Part shown: one piece after another, positions 367-11,628 of the stretch
Layout of the letters: each line of letters starts with the position of its first letter
How positions within the stretch are numbered: position 1 is the stretch's first letter
Source of the DNA: Pseudomonadota bacterium
Lineage (GTDB): Bacteria > Pseudomonadota > Gammaproteobacteria > Halothiobacillales > Halothiobacillaceae
DNA length: 64,000 bases
Direction of reading: 5' to 3'
Assembly: GCA_021801265.1 (NCBI GenBank)
Contig: JAJYYE010000011.1
Coordinates: forward strand, 124,001-188,000
The notes under the pieces: generated by a model
What the model was told of the DNA's origin: nothing
Databases searched by the model: none
Seen by the model: the letters and a program-made list of their open reading frames with translations, nothing else
Program-made: the position numbers and the translations under genes

Positions 367-2937
367 ATGGAAATTTCGCGTGTACGCGCCTTGCGCGGAC
401 CGAACCTCTGGTCTCGACATACCGCTATCCAAGCCATTGTATTTTGCACGCCAGAAGAGCGCGACATCAGCGCAGATTTTGAATCACGGCTGCGGGCGCA
501 ATTTCCGCACATTGGCAATTTACAAGGCATTGGGCAGCACCAGAGTTTTTCCCTGGCGCATATTTTGGCGCATAGCTGCCTTGCGCTTCAGGCCCACGCG
601 AGTTGCCCGGTTTCATTTAGTCGCACCGTGCCCACCCTGGAAGAGGGGGTGTATCAAATCGTCGTTGAGTACTCCGAAGAGGCCGTTGGTCGCCTTGCGC
701 TTTCCTTGGCAGAATCGCTGATTCACGCTGTGCTTGCCGGGCGGGAATTCGACCTGGCGGCTGCACAAGCCGTATTACAAAGTCTGGATGAAGATGAGCG
801 CTTGGGCCCGAGTACGGGATCAATTGTTCAAGCAGCGGTTGCGCGCGGCATTCCCTTTCATCGTTTGACGTCAGGTAGCTTGGTGCAGTTGGGCTGGGGT
901 AGCCGACAACGGCGCATTCAGGCCGCTGAAATCGATCGTACCAGCGCCATCGGGGAGTCCATTGCTCAAGATAAACAACTCACCAAAGCCTTATTACGTG
1001 CTGCGGGCATTCCCGTGCCCACGGGGCGCGCCGTGCGGGATGCCAATGATGCCTGGGCCGCCGCGCTTGAAATTGGCTTGCCGGTGGTCGTTAAACCCCG
1101 AGATGGCAATCAGGGCCGAGGGGTTGTGGTCAATATCACGAGTGAGGATCAACTGCGGCGCGCCTATGCAAGTGCGCGTGAAGAAGGTCGCGAGATCATG
1201 GTTGAGCGCTTTATGCCTGGATATGATTTTCGCGTACTGGTGGTCGGCAAACAGGTCGTGGCCGCTGCGCGCCGTGATCCGCCCCTGGTATTGGGGGATG
1301 GTGAGCATTCGGTGGCGCAATTAATTGAACAATTGAATTCAGACCCACGACGCGGCGATGGCCATGCTCACGCGCTGACGCGCATTCGAATTGATGACAT
1401 CACCCATGTCACCCTGGAAACCCAGGGTTATCAATTAGAGAGTATCCCCGCCAAAGGGGTGCAGGTGGTATTGCGCAACAATGGCAACTTATCCACCGGC
1501 GGCAGTGCCACCGATGTGACCGATGATTTACACCCCGAACTCGCCGCACGCGCCGTGGAAGCCGCCCACATGATCGGGCTGGATGTCTGCGGGGTCGATT
1601 TGGTTTGCGAGCGCATTACCGAACCGCTAGAAACCCAAAATGGCGGCATTGTTGAGTTAAACGCCGCGCCGGGTTTACGCATGCATTTACAACCCTCTTA
1701 TGGTAAATCCCGTTTGGTCGGTGAAGCCATTATTAATGAAGTGTACCCACCCGGTGAAGATGGCCGCATTCCCATCGTCGCCGTATCGGGCACCAATGGC
1801 AAAACCACCACAACCCGTTTAATCGGACATATTCTGGCCCAAGCAGGCTTGCGTGTGGGCATCACCACCACCGATGGCGTGTACATCGCGGGTGAGCGGA
1901 TCGATACCGATGACTGCGCCGGGCCCATTAGTGCCCAAAATGTCCTGTTGCATCCGTATGTGGACGCGGGGGTATTTGAAACTGCGCGCGGGGGTATTTT
2001 GCGCCAGGGTTTGGCCTTTGATCGCTGCGATGTGGCTGTGGTCACCAATGTCGGACTGGGGGATCATTTGGGGCTGGCGTATATTCACACGGTGGATGAT
2101 CTTGCCGTCGTCAAACGCGTGATTGTCGATAATGTCGCGCCGAATGGCATGATTGTGCTGAACGCAGCGGATCCGATCGTGGCGCGCATGGCGGATACGG
2201 TCACCAGTGCCGTCACGTTTTTTGCGCTTGATCAACATCTACCCTTACTGATTTCCCGGCGCGAAATGGGTCAACGTATTCTATATATTGACGAGGGGTT
2301 TGTGGTGGCCGAGCAGGGGGCGTTCCAATGGCGCATGGCGCTTAAGGATATTCCGCTGACGATGAATGGCCGCATTGGATTTCAGGTTGAAAATGTGCTG
2401 GCGGCTGTGGGCGCGGCATGGGGACTGGGGCGTGATTGGGCAGAAATTCAAGCGGGCCTGAATGGTTTTGTGAGTAGCACCGACATGGTGCCGGGGCGAT
2501 TCAACCTGTTTGCCTTTAACGGTGCCACCGTAATTGCCGATTATGGCCACAACAGTGATGCCATTACCGCCTTGTGCAAAGCGGTTGAAAACATGCCAGC
2601 GCGCCAGCGGATTGTGGTGATTAGCGGGGCAGGGGATCGACGCGATGAGGATATTCGCCAACAAACCGAAATTTTGGGCGATGTTTTTGACGACGTCATC
2701 TTGTATCAAGATGCCTGTCAACGCGGGCGAACCGATGGCGAGGTAATTGGCTTGCTGCGCGATGGGCTGGCAAAAGCACAGCGAACTCAGCAGGTTGATG
2801 AAATTTACGGCGAATTTAACGCTATTGATGCCGCACTCACTCGCCTGCAACCCGATGATGTGTGTTTGATTTTGATTGATCAAGTTGACGCGGCACTCGC
2901 GTATTTGCGAGGGAAAACCGAGCAGGTAGCACGATAA
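367..2937 (+). CDS. cphA: Cyanophycin synthetase CphA
   Basis: An 856-residue cytoplasmic enzyme that makes cyanophycin, a nitrogen and carbon reserve, by adding Asp to the backbone and Arg to each Asp side chain using ATP. The N-terminal domain (about 1-160) opens with the family signature RALRGPNLWS. An ATP-grasp domain follows (about 200-470), with the KPRDGNQGRG nucleotide loop and an ELNAAPGLRMH motif. A Mur-ligase-like domain begins at the P-loop GTNGKTTTTR near residue 475 and runs to the C terminus, which includes the ADYGHN motif. Length is normal for the family. The ATG at 367 fits the family N terminus and has AGGA about 9 bases upstream. No cyanophycinase gene is visible nearby. 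Confidence 0.95.
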   Translation: MEISRVRALRGPNLWSRHTAIQAIVFCTPEERDISADFESRLRAQFPHIGNLQGIGQHQSFSLAHILAHSCLALQAHASCPVSFSRTVPTLEEGVYQIVVEYSEEAVGRLALSLAESLIHAVLAGREFDLAAAQAVLQSLDEDERLGPSTGSIVQAAVARGIPFHRLTSGSLVQLGWGSRQRRIQAAEIDRTSAIGESIAQDKQLTKALLRAAGIPVPTGRAVRDANDAWAAALEIGLPVVVKPRDGNQGRGVVVNITSEDQLRRAYASAREEGREIMVERFMPGYDFRVLVVGKQVVAAARRDPPLVLGDGEHSVAQLIEQLNSDPRRGDGHAHALTRIRIDDITHVTLETQGYQLESIPAKGVQVVLRNNGNLSTGGSATDVTDDLHPELAARAVEAAHMIGLDVCGVDLVCERITEPLETQNGGIVELNAAPGLRMHLQPSYGKSRLVGEAIINEVYPPGEDGRIPIVAVSGTNGKTTTTRLIGHILAQAGLRVGITTTDGVYIAGERIDTDDCAGPISAQNVLLHPYVDAGVFETARGGILRQGLAFDRCDVAVVTNVGLGDHLGLAYIHTVDDLAVVKRVIVDNVAPNGMIVLNAADPIVARMADTVTSAVTFFALDQHLPLLISRREMGQRILYIDEGFVVAEQGAFQWRMALKDIPLTMNGRIGFQVENVLAAVGAAWGLGRDWAEIQAGLNGFVSSTDMVPGRFNLFAFNGATVIADYGHNSDAITALCKAVENMPARQRIVVISGAGDRRDEDIRQQTEILGDVFDDVILYQDACQRGRTDGEVIGLLRDGLAKAQRTQQVDEIYGEFNAIDAALTRLQPDDVCLILIDQVDAALAYLRGKTEQVAR

Positions 2938-3193
2938 GATAGGGAGGGGATTCCATCCCTAACGCGAAGCTGGCGAAGCCCGACCGAACGCGGCACCGGC
3001 CCACCCGAAGCATCCCGAACCCACATCCGCAAAAGGTTACAAGGCGTTCACCATGTTGGACACCGCGTCGGGGTTAAACCCCCTCCTGCGCTCGAGTGCC
3101 CCGCTGTGTTGGAGTTCCCCCCACATTGCACTTCTGCTGTGCTGGGGGTTGAAATGCCTCGTGCTGTTTCTTGGCGCAAACGAGTCACGGCGG
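2938..3193. other. Intergenic stretch with weak hairpins, no gene seen
   Basis: No credible coding region is seen here. Just past the cphA stop, 2941-2960 can fold as AGGGAGGGG/CCATCCCT with one mismatch, but no T-run follows, so terminator status is weak. Around 3070-3083 there is a short GGGGTTAAACCCC inverted repeat. The segment lies between the cphA 3' end and the ancestral end of the converging broken cyclase gene. Confidence 0.4.
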
Positions 3194-3736
3194 TTATATA
3201 TCCAAGTTGCTGCGTTCTGCTAACCATGCAACTAATCGGCGACTCGCAGCCCGATTATCGTCCACCGTATGAATTTCGTTATGCCATTGGGCCACCTCTA
3301 CCATGGGCGTGCCCTTGGGCATCAAAAAATTGACTCAACGGGCACGCCTTTGCGGGTTGGGGATGGATCCCGTGACCGTTATACATAAACCACCAGTGAT
3401 AGGCAAGGGCACCGGTATGAGTGTGGATTTTTTCTGCAGCCAAAATCAAGTCGATACGTTTGCAGCCAAAGTGATGCCATACCCTTGGCCATAACGCGCG
3501 CCTAAAACCCGTGCAACCTTAATCGCACCGGTATTTTCCAGCCCTTCGACGATAACAGTTTGCTCAAAATCCCGCCCCATTTGAATCATGGCAGCAATTA
3601 AGCTCAAGGTTTGAATCGGATTGCTGTGTAACATACTGAGCAAGCTCTGGTCTATTTTGATGGTTTGAAATTGGTGCACAGGAGCCAAATTTGGTTTAGT
3701 CGTTGCTGCAGGTTTCGGGAAAATTGCTGCATCCAA
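3194..3736 (-). pseudogene. Decayed EAL domain and C-terminal extension of the upstream GGDEF protein
   Basis: This is the broken 3' end of the large sensor gene that follows on the minus strand. From about 3690 to 3476 one frame reads as the last third of an EAL phosphodiesterase domain: TIKIDQSLL, then VIVEGLEN, then YGQGYGI. The frame then shifts. From 3476 to about 3290 another frame reads TGALAYHWWFMYN and ACPLSQFF, typical of the extension that follows EAL in such proteins. A further shift leads to NEIHTVDDNRAASRRLVAWL and an ancestral stop at 3194-3196. The EAL signature and the DDFG region are missing, so roughly 130-150 codons appear deleted at the junction near 3685. Domain identity rests on reading the frames by eye. 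Confidence 0.75.
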
Positions 3737-6700
3737 ATCGATTCAAACTGGTGGGGATATGCCCCATAGATAGCCAAGACCGCAATTGCAACACCTGACC
3801 TATCTAAAATAGGAATCGTCATCACAGAGTAAATGCGCAGTTCCTGGATGGTCGTTCGCCACTCGGTATATCGCACGTCCGTTTGAATGTTTTTCGATGT
3901 TTTTATTTCGCCCGTGCGCCAAGATTCTGCAGCCAACCCCTGTCCGCGTGGTGCTTGCGAATCAGGTGTGGCCTCTTTTTCCGGTGTTTTCAAAATCGTA
4001 GCGACCCCATCCGCTTTTTCCCCCACACACGACTCAACTGTCATTAAGCCATGTGAATCCGGGCGCAACAGCAACACGCCTTGAATGCCGGGGCAGCGGC
4101 TCAGAGGATGAATTTCCTGGGTGATGACTTCCATCCAAAAGCACGCCTGGGGGGGGAATGGCGCGGTGAGTAGCGCGAAGTATTGTTGGATGGTGGCATC
4201 ACCTACTTGCGCTTGGGTGAGAATGTCATCCTCAAGCCGCGATTCGGCAATCATCAGTACCTGATAGCGATCGCGCGCTGCCATGGGCGATTGGTTCAAA
4301 AAATCGGTTAAAAGCCGCCGATACAAACTTAAGGCCTGCATGAGTAAAACACTGCTTACCCCAACCAACGCGTGAATTCTGCCCACATTGGTGGCTTTTT
4401 CGACCAATTGCTCGTGGGTGGTTCCAGGGTGCAGCACAAACAGCAGATGCGCGGCTTGAGTTTGAATCAGTGCCTGCATGGTGGCGGGTTCAAGGGTGCT
4501 CAGTACCTCATGAACCAGTGGATCACGCTCTAAGTTACGATAAAAAGCCGTGGTGAATTCAGTGGCCAAGTGCTCAAGAAAGGGGGCCTGACGAGCCAAT
4601 ACATCTTGATTGACTGCCGCGTAGGCATTGCTGCTAAGTTCGGGTTGTACGAGCTGAACTGATTCTGTTTTACTGAGTTGCCACCATTGGGTGCGGGTGG
4701 CTTTATGGGTTTTTAATTGATACAGCGCCGCATCGGCCTGACGCAACAAACTATCCCCTTCTTCGCTATCTTGTGGATACAGGGCAATCCCCATACTCAG
4801 GCAAATTTTGGCGAATTGTCCGGGGGCGACTTCAAACGGTTGCTCCACGGCTTGGTGTAATCGGGTTAATGCGATGGCAAGTTGCTCTTGCACATGGGAA
4901 TCGTCCAATTCTTCCAGTACGATCACAAATTCATCGCCGCCCAGCCGTACAAGCAAGTCCGGTTCACGCAAGCGCGCTTGAAGCCGCACCGCCAAATCAC
5001 GTAATAATTGATCGCCTGCCGCATGGCCATAATTATCGTTAACCGGTTTGAAATCATCGAGATCCAGCATGCCCACGGCAACCACGGTGCTTTTGCGCCG
5101 CGCGCGCGCCAAAGCTTTGGGCAACCACAGCTCCAGCGCGCGCCGATTGGGTAGATCGGTCAGAGTATCGTGCATCGCTTGATGGGTGATGGCTTGCTTG
5201 GCCTCATGCAGCTCGGTAATATCGATAATGCTCCAAAGCACCCCGTGCTCTCCATTTTGCAGGGTAATGGTCGCGCCCAAGGTTTCGACATAACGGCTTC
5301 TGCCGTCTTTGCAATGCAATAACCCCATCGGCAGGTTTTGATTAACCACCTCGTCGAGTGTGTGCTCAAGATGCTGATTTATTTTTTCAAAATCCGCTCC
5401 ATTGCCATGGAGTAACGAAGCATTTTTTCCAAGCAATTCTTCACGGGTGAAGCCCGTTAATGCACAAAGGGCGGAGTTGACATCCATCACCTTGCGCTCT
5501 GAATCGACGATGAGCATTGCCGCCGCATTTTTTTCAAACAACACGCGTTGAAATTGCGCCGATTGTTTTAACTCAAGCTGGAGTTGATGCCGCTGGGTAA
5601 TATCCTGCAATGTCCACACCGTGGAATAGTACTGCGTGCCTTCAATTAAGCTGCCCGATAAATCAACATAAATGATACTGCCATCCCGTTTTTTCAGGCG
5701 TATATCCAGCAAGGTATATTTGCCCATGGCAATAATAGAGGGATAAACCCTGCCTACTCGGTGGTATTCATCCAGATCGGCGTAAATTATTTCGGTCGAT
5801 TGCCCATTCAGCTCATCGGCTGAATCGTAACCTAATAGATCAATAAACCTGGGGTTGACTTGGGTAATCTTTCGATCCTTAACCAACATAATCCCCGCTA
5901 ACGTATTGTTCAGCAGGGCTTGCTGGGTAGCGGTTAAGTTTTTTTCCCGTTGCTGCGTTTCCAGCCATTGCAGTCCGTAGGTAATATCTTGCGCCAGTTG
6001 TTCTAGCGTAACGCGCAATTCGGTATCAAAAAATTGTTTCTCGGCGTGATAGACCGAGAAAATCGCCCAAATCACCCCATTTTTATAAATGGGCAAGGTG
6101 GCGCTGGAGTTTAAGCCAAATGCGGCGGCACGCTCAGCCCAAGGGGCAAGGTGTGGATTACTGAAAAAGTCATTCACATAAAAGGCCGCTCCAGAACGCC
6201 AGGCTTGGCCACCGGTCCCATTACCTTCAGGGATATCCGGATTAATACTCAGCTTCATTCCAGCCGTATATTGCATGGCCTCACCCTCAACGGTGAGCAA
6301 ATAAAACCAGCCGCGCTCATCAGGACGGGCGATAAATGCGAGGCGTAAATCACCGTGATGCACCGCCAAAGAACAAATTGTCGTCAGGAGTTCGGTCTCA
6401 TCCTGACTGCGATCAATCACTTGATTCACCTGCGCGAGCAGGGCATTAAATTGCGCCAAGCGTTTGAGTTGACGGGTGGTGAGTTCCCGCTCACGCATCA
6501 GGCTAAAAACGCCCCATGCGCCCAATAGCAATAAAAACAACATCCCCGCATCAATGGTCAACCGAGGTTTGGCATTTTGCCAATAAAGTTGCGCAGCAGA
6601 TCCTGCATTGGCACCAACCACCACCACTAAAGGATAACCGGTTATTGGCACCTTGATTTCAAGGGAGGGTGCCATTGCATGCGCACTGGAATACGGTGCT

Positions 6701-7410
6701 ATGCCCCCCACGGATAACTGATGGTTTCGCCATACACCCAGCACACTATCGTCCCGGGTATCAATCACTCGAAATTGCCAAGGTAAATCACGCGTGCTAT
6801 AAGCCAGCAGCGCGCTGAGCTTATAGGGTGCGCTGAGATAAAAAACTGTGTCTCCGGTAGCGGCTTGCACGCGATAACGCATGGAAAGCACTTTATCTTT
6901 GCCGGGCATAGGCGATTGATCTTGGCCAAATAAATAATTCGGCTGATTTTCTAGAATAGTGAAATTTTGCGGTGGGGTAATTGGATGTAGGGAAGGATTG
7001 CCCGCGTTATCTGACCACACGCGAGTCGACCCATCGGGTGCGTACAAATTCAAGGCATAAAGCTCAGGGTTTGCGTGCTTTAAACGCACTAAAACCTGTT
7101 GCGTCCGCGCATCAGGCGCTTGATGGTCAGCGGTGACATCCAGTAAAGTCGCGGCAAATTGAAGTTGCCGATATTGATTATCTATGCGGTTTTGGATGAT
7201 GCGGGCATACCCCGTACCGGCTTGTACTTCGGCTTCCAGGATGACATTTTTTGTATCCTGAAAATGAGTCCATTCATTCACGCTACTCCAAGCCAAAAAC
7301 ATCAGCAAGGGAATGCTCAAAAATACCCAGTAATTTGCCCGTAATTTTTTAATCAGTGGGTTCGTGTTGAAGAACTTCAACTGAAATGATGCGGGTAACG
7401 ATGACGACAT
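3652..7410 (-). CDS. Membrane sensor diguanylate cyclase (GAF-PAS-PAS-GGDEF-globin-GAF), truncated before EAL
   Basis: A 1252-residue inner-membrane protein expected to make c-di-GMP. Order: transmembrane helix (about 28-45), periplasmic sensor region (to about 275), second helix (about 288-305), GAF (about 330-480), PAS (about 495-610), PAS (about 620-735), GGDEF (about 745-900), a globin-like four-helix region (about 930-1075) with a possible heme ligand His1013 in GRIHALVG, and a second GAF (about 1085-1240). GGDEF is intact at 824-828, with an RxxD inhibitory site at 815-818 five residues before it. The frame then runs out in KPSK, exactly where an EAL domain should begin; its remains lie downstream in other frames. 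The product is therefore probably a cyclase that lost its phosphodiesterase half. Heme binding is inferred, not shown. Confidence 0.85.
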   Translation of the reverse strand: MSSSLPASFQLKFFNTNPLIKKLRANYWVFLSIPLLMFLAWSSVNEWTHFQDTKNVILEAEVQAGTGYARIIQNRIDNQYRQLQFAATLLDVTADHQAPDARTQQVLVRLKHANPELYALNLYAPDGSTRVWSDNAGNPSLHPITPPQNFTILENQPNYLFGQDQSPMPGKDKVLSMRYRVQAATGDTVFYLSAPYKLSALLAYSTRDLPWQFRVIDTRDDSVLGVWRNHQLSVGGIAPYSSAHAMAPSLEIKVPITGYPLVVVVGANAGSAAQLYWQNAKPRLTIDAGMLFLLLLGAWGVFSLMRERELTTRQLKRLAQFNALLAQVNQVIDRSQDETELLTTICSLAVHHGDLRLAFIARPDERGWFYLLTVEGEAMQYTAGMKLSINPDIPEGNGTGGQAWRSGAAFYVNDFFSNPHLAPWAERAAAFGLNSSATLPIYKNGVIWAIFSVYHAEKQFFDTELRVTLEQLAQDITYGLQWLETQQREKNLTATQQALLNNTLAGIMLVKDRKITQVNPRFIDLLGYDSADELNGQSTEIIYADLDEYHRVGRVYPSIIAMGKYTLLDIRLKKRDGSIIYVDLSGSLIEGTQYYSTVWTLQDITQRHQLQLELKQSAQFQRVLFEKNAAAMLIVDSERKVMDVNSALCALTGFTREELLGKNASLLHGNGADFEKINQHLEHTLDEVVNQNLPMGLLHCKDGRSRYVETLGATITLQNGEHGVLWSIIDITELHEAKQAITHQAMHDTLTDLPNRRALELWLPKALARARRKSTVVAVGMLDLDDFKPVNDNYGHAAGDQLLRDLAVRLQARLREPDLLVRLGGDEFVIVLEELDDSHVQEQLAIALTRLHQAVEQPFEVAPGQFAKICLSMGIALYPQDSEEGDSLLRQADAALYQLKTHKATRTQWWQLSKTESVQLVQPELSSNAYAAVNQDVLARQAPFLEHLATEFTTAFYRNLERDPLVHEVLSTLEPATMQALIQTQAAHLLFVLHPGTTHEQLVEKATNVGRIHALVGVSSVLLMQALSLYRRLLTDFLNQSPMAARDRYQVLMIAESRLEDDILTQAQVGDATIQQYFALLTAPFPPQACFWMEVITQEIHPLSRCPGIQGVLLLRPDSHGLMTVESCVGEKADGVATILKTPEKEATPDSQAPRGQGLAAESWRTGEIKTSKNIQTDVRYTEWRTTIQELRIYSVMTIPILDRSGVAIAVLAIYGAYPHQFESIWMQQFSRNLQQRLNQIWLLCTNFKPSK

Positions 7411-7718
7411 GAAGCGCTCGAATTTTCATCCTGTAACTTAATTAAACCTTGATGGGATCAAGCTCACCGCCGATCAATTTAGTTTGTCGTCAGCGGAGTG
7501 CTCAGTATACATTCAATTTAAAGCACATCAGATTAACTCTGAAAAGCCCGTACCGCCTTCCACCGCGCGGGATGGAGGACTTGGGTGAGTGCTCCAAGTG
7601 GTTAACCGGTTGAAGCGTGTCTAAATACAGATCATGCCAACAACTCAGCGCGCAATAGAAACATCCTGCTAGAATGCGAAACTTAAATCAAAATCTGGCT
7701 GGAAAGAGGTGGAAAAGG
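7411..7718. other. Intergenic region between divergent c-di-GMP genes
   Basis: About 300 bases separate the minus-strand cyclase from pilZ on the plus strand. The only signal I would name is the extended -10 element listed separately at 7667-7675. A GGTTAACC palindrome with an adjoining CGGTT lies near 7600. No coding remnant was recognised. Confidence 0.4.
7667..7675 (+). promoter_or_regulatory. Candidate extended -10 promoter for pilZ
   Basis: TGCTAGAAT is a TG-n-TAGAAT extended -10 element, 43 bases before the chosen pilZ start. There is no good -35 hexamer, which extended -10 promoters do not always need. The call rests on sequence pattern only. Confidence 0.4.
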
Positions 7719-8060
7719 ATGGCACTGGGCGGCGGCATGATTCATCACAACATTCCGAACAAGGATACGTTGTACCGTTCTTATATGCCGTTTATTAAAA
7801 ACGGCGGTTTGTTTATTCCGGGTTTTACCCAACACGAATTAGGCAAAGAATTATTCCTAACCCTGACGATAATGGGCAATCCTGAACGCATCGCATTGGC
7901 AGTTAAAGTCGTATGGCTGACGCCAGAAGGCGCACAAGGTGGTAAAACTGCCGGAATTGGGGTGCAATTCAGCCCCATGGATAAGGGGCAAACCCGCGCA
8001 AAAATTGAGGGTTATTTGCCGGGCGCGTTGGAGAAAGACACGCCGACGGCCACCATTTAA
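7719..8060 (+). CDS. pilZ: Type IV pilus biogenesis protein PilZ
   Basis: A 113-residue cytoplasmic protein of the founding PilZ family, needed for type IV pilus assembly and twitching in Pseudomonas and Xanthomonas. The sequence follows PilZ throughout: LYRSYMPFIKNGGLFIP, KVVWLTP, GIGVQF and the tail YLPGAL. Like classical PilZ, and unlike c-di-GMP-binding PilZ domains, it has no RxxxR motif at the N terminus, so it probably does not bind c-di-GMP directly. The ATG at 7719 is preferred to an upstream in-frame ATG at 7674 because AGAGGTGG lies 6 bases before it and the length then matches the family. It sits alone, not beside holB and tatD as in Pseudomonas. Confidence 0.88.
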   Translation: MALGGGMIHHNIPNKDTLYRSYMPFIKNGGLFIPGFTQHELGKELFLTLTIMGNPERIALAVKVVWLTPEGAQGGKTAGIGVQFSPMDKGQTRAKIEGYLPGALEKDTPTATI

Positions 8061-8154
8061 GTTTATCGCTCAGTGAATGTGCGCCCAAATAACGGCTGGT
8101 TTGCGGTTGTTCCCCATCGGCAAGTCACACGAAACCGGTCTAACCTCGTAACGC

Positions 8155-10041
8155 ATGGCTAACGCGCTTCGCCCATTGCTCTCTTATGCCCAACCATCAC
8201 CCGCTTGGCCTATGGTGGGGCGAACGGCAATGCTATTGGCGGCGCCAATCGCTTTGGCTTATGTCGCGCTGGCGTGGTTGGTGACACATTATTTTTTCCT
8301 CATCTCCCCCATTTGGCCGTCCGCAGCCGTGGCGACGGCTGCGGTCATGCTGTATGGCCGCGCCGGCTTACCGGGAATTTTTATCGGTTCGTTTATTGCC
8401 AATCATTTACTCATGAATTGGGCGCCCTTGGGTGCCGTGATTACTTCATTGGGCAACGCGTTAGGCCCGTTGATTGGGGTGTATTTTTATCGACGCATGA
8501 CGCATGACGATTACTTTGTCAGTCCTAAATCGGTGGGCTGCTTTGTTTTAACGCTGGGTTTATTGAGCAATTCAGTTTCCGCCATCATTGGCATGGTCGG
8601 GGTCTCAGTGTTTCATTTCGAGGGAATAGCGCGCTTAACCCAATCATTTATCAGCTGGTGGGTTGGTGATTTAAGCAGCGCTATCATGCTGGCGCCAGCG
8701 ATTTATTTATGGGGTAAATGGCTGCAATCCAAAGAAGCTTATCCCCATGAGCAACAGGGTCGAGATGAGCTGATTTTTGTAGCGCTCATGATCACCGGCG
8801 GTTCATTGGTGCTGTTCGGCATACCAGGGACTGGCAATGTGCTGCACATCGGCGCGATGAGTTTGGTATTGCCGCCATTGGTTTGGGCCGCACAACGGTT
8901 TAATCCGCGCATTGCGCTAACATTGTTTGCCACACTGTATGTCATCGCGCTGGGCGGCACGATCATGCACCGAGGGCCATTTGCCACGTTTCCGCTCGGG
9001 GCGGCGCTCACGGCATTGCAGCTCATGGGGGCATCCATTGGATCGGCCATCCTGGTCGCCTCTGTACTGGATTTACAACGCAGAAAAGTCACGGCAAGCC
9101 TGCGCGAAATGAATGAATCACTGGCCGATAAAGTGGCTGAACGCACGTTGGAATTAGCCCGAAGTGAACGTCACATGCGGCATATTCTCGAAATGTCACC
9201 TATACCCATGCTCGTCACCGAGCTGGAATCAAGCCGGATTTTATTTGTCAACGATGAGTGTCTACACCTCTATGGTATTCATCGTTCCGAAGCCAAAAAT
9301 GTGACACTCAGCGAATTGTGGGTTGATCCGAATCAGCGACAGGAAATTATTCAACGCTTAAAAATGGGTGAAGTAATCCGCAATCACGAAGTGGCATTTA
9401 AAGACCTTCAAGGCGAGATTTTATGGTTGTCGATCGCGGTCGTTTTAACTCAGTTAGATCAAAAAGATGCACTGATGTTCGCTTTTAAAGATATCAGCTT
9501 GCACAAAGTGCGCGAGGCCGAGTTGTTAACCCAAGCCACAACTGACGTGCTCACGGGATTATATAATCGTCGCCAAGTGCGTGAGTTATGCCACCGGTTG
9601 ATACAGGAGCCCAAAAAAGGCGATCTCGATGTATCAATCTGCATTTTCGACTTGGATCACTTTAAAAAAATTAATGATAATTTCGGGCATGCATGTGGCG
9701 ATAAAGTTTTGCGCACGGTTGCTGATATGGCGCAACTCTGTTTACGGGATCATGATATTTTGGGTCGATGGGGTGGCGAGGAGTTCGTACTCATTTTGCC
9801 CAATACACCGGTTCACCGCGCCTGTATTCTCATTGAGCGTTTGCGGGCCAAGCTCACCGAATCGGCCATGCTGTGCGATAACGGCCACCTCATTTCATTT
9901 AGCGCAAGTTTTGGTGTGGCGGGTGGTGTACTGCATCCCCATACAACCGATTTTGATCTATTTGATACCTGGTTAAACCATGCGGACCGTGCCTTATATC
10001 GTGCCAAGGAAAATGGACGAAACTGCATTGAATCCCATTAA
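8155..10041 (+). CDS. MASE1-PAS-GGDEF diguanylate cyclase
   Basis: A 628-residue inner-membrane protein. The first 300 residues or so form a multi-helix MASE1-type sensor with an IWPSAAVATA segment and several long hydrophobic helices. A short coiled segment leads into a PAS domain (about 335-450), followed by a GGDEF domain (about 460-625). The active site reads GGEEF at 540-544, with an RDHD inhibitory site five residues upstream, and FDLDHFKKIND and NRR motifs are present, so it should be an active, feedback-inhibited cyclase. There is no EAL domain. The upstream region lacks a strong ribosome site, so the start is less certain than the frame. The glycosyltransferase gene begins 30 bases downstream. 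Confidence 0.9.
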   Translation: MANALRPLLSYAQPSPAWPMVGRTAMLLAAPIALAYVALAWLVTHYFFLISPIWPSAAVATAAVMLYGRAGLPGIFIGSFIANHLLMNWAPLGAVITSLGNALGPLIGVYFYRRMTHDDYFVSPKSVGCFVLTLGLLSNSVSAIIGMVGVSVFHFEGIARLTQSFISWWVGDLSSAIMLAPAIYLWGKWLQSKEAYPHEQQGRDELIFVALMITGGSLVLFGIPGTGNVLHIGAMSLVLPPLVWAAQRFNPRIALTLFATLYVIALGGTIMHRGPFATFPLGAALTALQLMGASIGSAILVASVLDLQRRKVTASLREMNESLADKVAERTLELARSERHMRHILEMSPIPMLVTELESSRILFVNDECLHLYGIHRSEAKNVTLSELWVDPNQRQEIIQRLKMGEVIRNHEVAFKDLQGEILWLSIAVVLTQLDQKDALMFAFKDISLHKVREAELLTQATTDVLTGLYNRRQVRELCHRLIQEPKKGDLDVSICIFDLDHFKKINDNFGHACGDKVLRTVADMAQLCLRDHDILGRWGGEEFVLILPNTPVHRACILIERLRAKLTESAMLCDNGHLISFSASFGVAGGVLHPHTTDFDLFDTWLNHADRALYRAKENGRNCIESH

Positions 10042-10071
10042 TATTTTTCATTAAGTGTATTACTCATAATC

Positions 10072-11628
10072 ATGCCTCAATCCCGTTATATACAGTTTTT
10101 TATTCTTGCGTTGGCCGTATTTATCGGTTTTTATGGTTATATCGGAACCATGCCGTTATTTGATCTCGATGAAGGGGCATTTACAACCGCTACCCGAGAA
10201 ATGTTCTTGCGGCATGATTTTATTACCCCTTATTTAAATTCCGTTCCGCGCTTTGATAAGCCTATTCTCATCTATTGGCTGCAAGCGGCTTCAGCGACTA
10301 TTTTTGGATTTAATGAATTTGCATTTCGGCTACCTTCAGCCCTGGCCTCAACAGCATGGGTATTTCTTATCTATCGATTTGTTGCTTTAGTAACCGATTC
10401 CGAAAAGGCTTTTTATGCCGCACTCATCGCCGCCACCAGCTTAATGCCGACCATAGTCGGCAAAGCGGCTATTGCCGATGCCATTTTGATGCTGTTTATT
10501 ACGATGGCCACGTTTGCTATTTTCAGGCATTGGCAAACAGGCAGGGCAGTTTACATCCGTTGGGCCTATGTCGCGATGGCTTTAGGGTTTTTAACCAAAG
10601 GCCCGGTGGCTGTTGTTATTCCGGGCGCTGTCAGTTTATTGTTTTATCTGTCTACCGGCCGGTGGGGCTTATGGTGGCGCGCAGTGATGGATTGGCGGGG
10701 TATTGTACTTTTTCTTGTACTCGCGATGCCCTGGTATGTCGTAGAATACCTGCGCGAAGGGCAGGCATTTATTAACGGGTTCTTCCTTAAAAATAATGTT
10801 GACCGTTTTAGTGCGCCGATGGAAGGCCATTCTGGTGGATTTTTGTTTTATCCCCTTGTGACCTTTGTGGCATTAATGCCGTTTACCGGTCTGGTATTTG
10901 TTGCATTAAGGAATATTTTCACTGATGTGCTTCCTTTTCGTCTGAATACGCTTTCAGATGAAGCAGCCCTGAAACGCTTTGGCTGGATTTGGTTTTTATT
11001 TGTTTTGATTTTATTTTCACTCTCTGGAACCAAACTTCCACACTATCTTAATTATGGTCTGGTTGGATTGATATTGATACTTGCCCTCTATTTTCCAAAA
11101 ATATCTAACCGCTGGTTGCATTTAATGCCTGTATGGATTTTCTTTGTATTACTGCTTATCCTGCCAACCTTATTAAATATCCTGATTGATAAAATAAATC
11201 CACTCTATGTTCGTGCAATGCTCGCTGAGCGCAACACGTATTTTGGTTTAAGTTGGTACCTGCCATTGAGTTTGTTTTTATTCTTATCGATTTCCGCAGC
11301 TTTTTTTAGACGTTATTCACTTGTTTTTATTATGGTTCCGTTAGCCCTATCATTTTCCTGGATGATTAATTCTCGTTTATTACCCATCGTGGCCGATTTG
11401 CAGCAAGGGCCGATTAAAGCCGCAGGGTTGCTGGCCCGTGGGTTACCTGGACCCGCACTCATGTACCACATGAACACCCCCAGTTTTGGTGTATACGCTG
11501 GAAAAATTCTTCGGCGCGGCCAACCAGAATCGGGAGATTTGGTGCTCACGCGTTCAAACGATGCACCATCGCTCAACGCACAAGCCCTATTTGAGCAGGG
11601 CGGTGTGGTGTTGTTGAGAATGCGTTAA
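10072..11628 (+). CDS. GT39/ArnT-like polyprenyl-phosphate-sugar glycosyltransferase
   Basis: A 518-residue integral membrane protein with about a dozen hydrophobic helices. The first periplasmic loop carries FDLDEGAFTTATREM, the acidic signature of the PMT/ArnT clan, in which an Asp acts in transfer from a lipid-linked sugar. FDKPILIYWLQA and LTKGPVAVVIPG are also typical of ArnT-like proteins. The family moves sugars from polyprenyl phosphate to lipid A, glycans or proteins on the periplasmic side; the acceptor here is unknown. It follows the cyclase gene by 30 bases and may share its transcript. No other polysaccharide or lipid A genes are adjacent. Confidence 0.8.
   Translation: MPQSRYIQFFILALAVFIGFYGYIGTMPLFDLDEGAFTTATREMFLRHDFITPYLNSVPRFDKPILIYWLQAASATIFGFNEFAFRLPSALASTAWVFLIYRFVALVTDSEKAFYAALIAATSLMPTIVGKAAIADAILMLFITMATFAIFRHWQTGRAVYIRWAYVAMALGFLTKGPVAVVIPGAVSLLFYLSTGRWGLWWRAVMDWRGIVLFLVLAMPWYVVEYLREGQAFINGFFLKNNVDRFSAPMEGHSGGFLFYPLVTFVALMPFTGLVFVALRNIFTDVLPFRLNTLSDEAALKRFGWIWFLFVLILFSLSGTKLPHYLNYGLVGLILILALYFPKISNRWLHLMPVWIFFVLLLILPTLLNILIDKINPLYVRAMLAERNTYFGLSWYLPLSLFLFLSISAAFFRRYSLVFIMVPLALSFSWMINSRLLPIVADLQQGPIKAAGLLARGLPGPALMYHMNTPSFGVYAGKILRRGQPESGDLVLTRSNDAPSLNAQALFEQGGVVLLRMR

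Follow-up and report, generated by a model that had tools for sequence, protein, structure and literature searches.

Loss of the EAL half from a multi-sensor GGDEF-globin-GAF-EAL protein gene in a Halothiobacillus genome

The window analyzed here is a stretch of 64,000 nucleotides (nt) from a gammaproteobacterium of the family Halothiobacillaceae (assembly GCA_021801265.1, contig JAJYYE010000011.1, positions 124,001 to 188,000), which contains on its minus strand, at 3652-7410, a gene for a large GGDEF-domain protein. This gene is the local ortholog of the Halothiobacillus multi-sensor GGDEF-globin-GAF-EAL protein and has lost its EAL half; that the product of its head is retained is considered likely, with modest confidence. 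Domain gain and loss among GGDEF and EAL proteins are well known, and the present case is a real but ordinary example of domain loss or gene decay at a single locus of a single genome; no report on this gene was found in the searched literature, as far as its available parts go. Whether a given GGDEF-EAL protein makes or breaks cyclic di-GMP (c-di-GMP) is hard to tell, and a gene that has naturally lost one pole, with intact relatives at hand, provides a ready-made comparison.

Lesions and remnants in the tail of the gene

An earlier note, made from the sequence alone, had claimed that the GGDEF, globin-like and GAF parts of this gene are intact, that most of the EAL domain is deleted past residue 1240, and that at least two further frame shifts follow. 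The deletion could now be sized by comparison with six Halothiobacillus orthologs (G007, G003, G005, G008, G001 and G004) and by DNA alignments of the junction with three of them. At the junction (3670-3673, minus strand), just 2 nt stand where all six orthologs have 176 codons (528 nt in each); the net loss is thus 526 nt, which is not a multiple of three and hence shifts the frame. Approximately 71% of the EAL profile is lost, including the EAL and DDxGxG motifs, both of which are present in the orthologs (EVL in G003). A full EAL domain is therefore absent; what is left, off-frame, corresponds to profile positions 168-233 of 236. An insertion at the junction was ruled out, since just 2 nt lie between conserved codons. 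A relocated EAL segment was also rejected: it was not found elsewhere in the genome, where the best of 14 matches was a paralog (C12) at 54% identity. Repeat-mediated deletion was checked as well, and few matching bases were seen at the junction in the alignments with ortholog DNA.

What is left of the EAL half lies on the minus strand in three pieces. Remnant A (3473-3670) is the end of the EAL domain in a shifted frame; it is identical to G007, G003 and G005 at 55-56 of 66 residues (55 of 66 for G007), with a ratio of nonsynonymous to synonymous differences per site (pN/pS) of 0.11-0.13. The EAL profile match that remains of this gene is carried by a separate open reading frame (ORF) of 96 residues (3446-3736). 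Next comes the second lesion (3435-3472), an altered stretch of approximately 38 nt that is shorter than in the orthologs and holds a 10-nt word twice, although so short a repeat can arise by chance. Remnant B (3300-3434) comes from the C-terminal extension and uses a different frame; it was detected by tblastn with E-values from 1.6e-11 to 1.5e-19, the latter for G005 (36 aligned residues, 72% identical). The change from remnant B to remnant C, the end of the C-terminal extension (3206-3328 by tblastn, lower end approximate), marks the third lesion, which lies in or at the end of 3300-3328, where the tblastn frames overlap.

Remnants A and C thus share one reading frame, B occupies a second and the ORF of 1252 amino acids (aa) a third, which agrees with the alternating minus-strand frames that had been read in the tail. 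Comparison of these frames with full-length relatives, proposed earlier as a check, revealed similarity to the EAL end and the C-terminal extension, for the latter above that of shuffled sequences: with seven queries (six orthologs and one paralog), tblastn gave 43-66 bits for remnant B and 34-48 bits for remnant C, whereas among 500 mononucleotide shuffles of 3190-3470 only 36 had any match, the best at 24.6 bits. Judged by disabling lesions relative to intact orthologs, the EAL part and the C-terminal extension are pseudogenic, and the head is free of frame-breaking lesions.

Distribution of the full-length protein in the family

All six orthologs have the same domain order as the window gene up to the last GAF domain, and similar neighbors, but they then run into a complete EAL domain and a C-terminal extension. 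They share 44-64% identity with the query over most of its length (43-63% in the alignment), and their proteins have 1566-1607 aa (G005 is cut at 1517 by the contig end; open frames 1517-1617 codons). Ten genomes of the genus, the window's own among them, were compared; at a search cut-off of 1e-100, the remaining three showed a shorter GGDEF-type match only (two genomes) or no match (one genome). A tree built from residues 1-1246 places the window gene with G007, G003 and G005 (99% support in the Shimodaira-Hasegawa-like approximate likelihood ratio test).

A more extensive search with the globin-GAF part in 27 genomes of the family yielded 32 matches in 20 genomes. Besides the window's own gene, which alone is truncated among them, all 30 matches examined keep the EAL domain, so that the claim of several lesions having removed the EAL half holds against both the genus and the family. 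This count comprises 29 matches assessed with an EAL profile made with 10 members of the same set and one (the C6 protein described below) assessed separately, with G001:C1:2654753 left aside; among the 29, L078 has a masked stretch before the EAL domain, and some proteins show EVL, EML, ESL or EFL in place of EAL. The EAL domain is also kept in all four further loci, one titled Thiomonas and three titled only 'Proteobacteria bacterium'; at one locus (L093) the match spans only the end of the GAF part.

Domains of the surviving open frame

The surviving ORF (3652-7410, minus strand, as are all of its domains) encodes an N-terminal sensor region followed by GAF, PAS, PAS, GGDEF, protoglobin and GAF domains, six off-frame residues and a stop. 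These last six residues and the stop fall beyond the junction at about 3670, outside the ancestral frame, and no frame-breaking lesion exists in the 1246 ancestral codons upstream of it. Pfam domains in this frame bear out the claim that the GGDEF, globin-like and GAF parts are intact; the N-terminal GAF and PAS domains, which the earlier note did not mention, belong to the same frame. The first GAF domain is encoded at 5980-6405 (residues 336-477; GAF_2, 7.9e-24), the first PAS domain at 5644-5865 (residues 516-589; PAS_3, 1e-07), and the second PAS domain at 5218-5547 (residues 622-731; PAS, 3e-18).

The GGDEF domain (4699-5178; residues 745-904; Pfam, 7.1e-43) is full-length, covering profile positions 1-159 of 161, and can be aligned to solved diguanylate cyclases. 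Conservation was assessed in an alignment of 11 of the 17 coding sequences gathered, leaving out the C9 paralog and five GGDEF-only rows. The GGDEF motif (residues 824-828) is invariant in all 11 sequences, as are the R and D of the RxxD inhibitory site (residues 815-818, five residues before the motif), the site that serves feedback inhibition of the cyclase. The protoglobin domain (4267-4608; residues 935-1048; Pfam, 2.5e-10) has a candidate heme-binding residue, His1013, which is likewise invariant in the 11 sequences; the alignments around it have weak E-values (0.0036 for HemAT and 0.13 for DosC). The globin sits behind the GGDEF domain rather than at the N-terminus, and no output domain was found after it by Pfam.

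Two GAF stretches are indicated by Pfam in the ORF, with a location shown for the better one only, and the second GAF domain (3673-4137; about residues 1092-1246) was placed by an AlphaFold2 model and alignment. In the model of residues 735-1252 (mean predicted local distance difference test score, pLDDT, 85.9; predicted template modeling score, pTM, 0.60), this domain is whole to its final helix (pLDDT 93-95), and values below 50 occur only in a linker and in the last three residues.

Possible function of the truncated protein

The remainder of the EAL half is out of frame. If the head is indeed retained, the 1252-residue product would still be made and folded, since the cut comes only where the last GAF helix ends. 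A product with cyclase function only is plausible, because both the GGDEF motif and the inhibitory site are preserved and the three lesions are confined to the 3' part of the gene. As the RxxD site is kept, feedback is predicted, and the product would act at most as a diguanylate cyclase that is subject to feedback inhibition and takes its input from the N-terminal sensors.

Two paralogs in the same genome hint at which sensor goes with which enzyme. The first (C5) aligns to residues 29-912, stops after the GGDEF domain and has no protoglobin match; front-half proteins ending after GGDEF are also present in five other genomes of the genus. The second (C6; L094 2111-4177; G000:C6, approximately 85110-87176) is a globin-GAF-EAL protein without GGDEF, whose GAF match of 26.9 bits is just under the Pfam cut-off of 28.6 and whose upstream gene looks like rpoD. 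Because of these two architectures, a front half with GGDEF alone and a globin-GAF pair with EAL alone, it is suggested that the front sensors belong to the GGDEF domain and the globin-GAF pair to the EAL domain. If the globin-GAF module did once serve EAL, the truncation would have spared the module of front sensors and GGDEF and deprived the globin-GAF module of its output. A bolder idea, which we regard as doubtful, is that a protein with two enzymes and two sensors has become, through the truncation, a one-way diguanylate cyclase whose heme-globin sensor is orphaned and either inert or rewired to control GGDEF from behind. If so, the gene would represent a young natural case in which one enzyme pole has gone and the whole sensor set has been kept. 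The globin part is no more diverged than the neighboring parts, which speaks neither for nor against an orphaned globin.

Among known systems, Escherichia coli DgcO/DosC and Bordetella BpeGReg also combine a protoglobin and a GGDEF domain in one protein and have the conserved candidate heme histidine. In both, however, the globin is N-terminal and drives GGDEF (according to the available part of PMC8846402), whereas in the window gene it lies behind GGDEF, beside the lost EAL half. The EAL-type genes rtn and y3389, two of the three phosphodiesterase genes of Yersinia pestis, have become pseudogenes, and a rise in c-di-GMP was reported, as described in the accessible portions of PMC13101507 and PMC3084805. 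These pseudogenes similarly concern the c-di-GMP-degrading side, and y3389 encodes both GGDEF and EAL; nevertheless, they are N-terminal truncations with one working phosphodiesterase left, in contrast to the C-terminal loss seen here beside 18 other EAL matches. By analogy with Y. pestis, a c-di-GMP rise after the loss of a phosphodiesterase is reasonable as an idea. The earlier note had proposed a shift toward high c-di-GMP, but with 31 GGDEF and 19 EAL matches in the genome, the latter including the present remnant, a single EAL loss need not raise c-di-GMP or move the balance.

Conservation of the head and alternative explanations

Divergence was compared between the window gene and G007, G003, G005 and G008, with G001 and G004 left out. 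The ratio of nonsynonymous to synonymous substitution rates (dN/dS) of the head against G007, G003 and G005 was 0.16-0.17, not above the 0.20-0.23 found among those three, with synonymous sites near saturation. The paths that lead to the three sisters, measured from a shared fork (0.38-0.47), are no shorter than the end branch of the head (0.29). The pN of remnant A to the three relatives was 0.075-0.097 versus 0.013-0.039 among them, approximately threefold, a figure from 66 codons that carries no conclusion. Domain-wise dN/dS and branch lengths were considered as proof of selection since the break and rejected, because remnant A is itself still well conserved.

The distance of the GGDEF, globin and last GAF parts to G007, G003 and G005 is about twice that among these three. 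As a separate observation, for the N-terminal, first GAF and PAS parts the distance to the three relatives is about the same as that between them, and this uneven divergence possibly reflects recombination among relatives.

A head that is still in use is favored by the position of the two later lesions: both lie in the 464-nt tail and none in the 3738-nt head, a pattern that would have a probability of 0.012 if lesions were evenly placed, although this post hoc figure treats the lesions as independent. Several points weigh against the main reading. Since remnant A remains 55-56/66 identical with its low pN/pS, the break appears to be recent, and most of the low dN/dS of the head would be older than the break. 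The service of globin-GAF to EAL, moreover, is suggested by the architecture of paralogs alone. Finally, an intact GGDEF domain in tandem proteins is no proof of cyclase activity: in the available part of PMC10874727, PA0285, RmcA and RbdA have intact GGDEF domains without in vitro cyclase activity, whereas MucR and MorA are bifunctional, with cyclase activity observed.

It is a real possibility, though we put it at well short of an even chance, that the whole gene is an early pseudogene whose ancestor acted mainly as a phosphodiesterase, its GGDEF domain binding GTP in a regulatory role, and whose functionless head has not yet decayed. The inactive GGDEF domains just mentioned fit this explanation, and if the EAL remnant dates the break as recent, the intact head is a weak sign of use. 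It is countered by the contrast between the head without any frame-breaking lesion and the tail with two, by an end branch of the head that does not exceed those of its sisters, and by front-half proteins that end after GGDEF, which exist both in the genome of the window and in five more genomes of the genus.

Two other explanations appear far less credible than retention of the head. That an error-rich or chimeric stretch of the assembly masks an intact gene is very improbable: although there is a single assembly of 12 contigs (2.66 Mb, 99.92% complete) and two of the three lesions are small, a 526-nt loss with two separate lesions, all in a span of 470 nt, would have to be explained inside a contig of 235,665 bp, in which both neighbors match those of relatives, and the missing EAL segment is absent from the rest of the assembly. 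Even less can be said for a use of the remnants, in which a short EAL-end product of ORF 3446-3736 would be made and act with the head. Remnant A does retain most of its residues, including the TIKIDQ, VEGLE and GQG stretches, which presumably hold the catalytic K, E and Q. However, this ORF lacks profile positions 1-167 with the EAL and DDxGxG motifs, its sole listed start is a TTG within the GAF coding region of the head, and the frames of remnants B and C differ.

Genomic context

The gene is flanked by neighbors that are kept in relatives. A cyanophycin synthetase-like ligase gene (367-2937, plus strand) is convergent to the broken gene; in five of the six relatives it adjoins the ortholog or lies at most 5 kb away, with 77.7-86.5% identity. 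A gene for a PilZ-domain protein (7674-8060, plus strand) is divergent from it and is found upstream of the ortholog in three of the six relatives (84-89% identity), with a different gene upstream in G007. In this comparison, the contigs of G003, G004 and G005 stop close to the gene on one side.

More broadly, three genes at 7674-11625 adjoin the broken gene and are divergent from it: the PilZ gene (a c-di-GMP receptor by type), a MASE1-PAS-GGDEF gene and one further gene. The PilZ gene and the further gene are retained at the ortholog locus in G008, G001 and G004, and the MASE1 gene in G004 (54% identity). In G007 and G003 (L046 220-5021 and L047 3782-8591), two tandem cyanophycin synthetase-like genes are present, the second copy being approximately 39% identical to that of the window. 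In addition, the intergenic stretch behind the broken gene (2967-3090) has eight other matches in the genome, with 69-93% identity over 27-121 bp and the core GGGGTTT-AACCCCGACGCGGTG, which suggests a short interspersed repeat family; the window contains a single copy.

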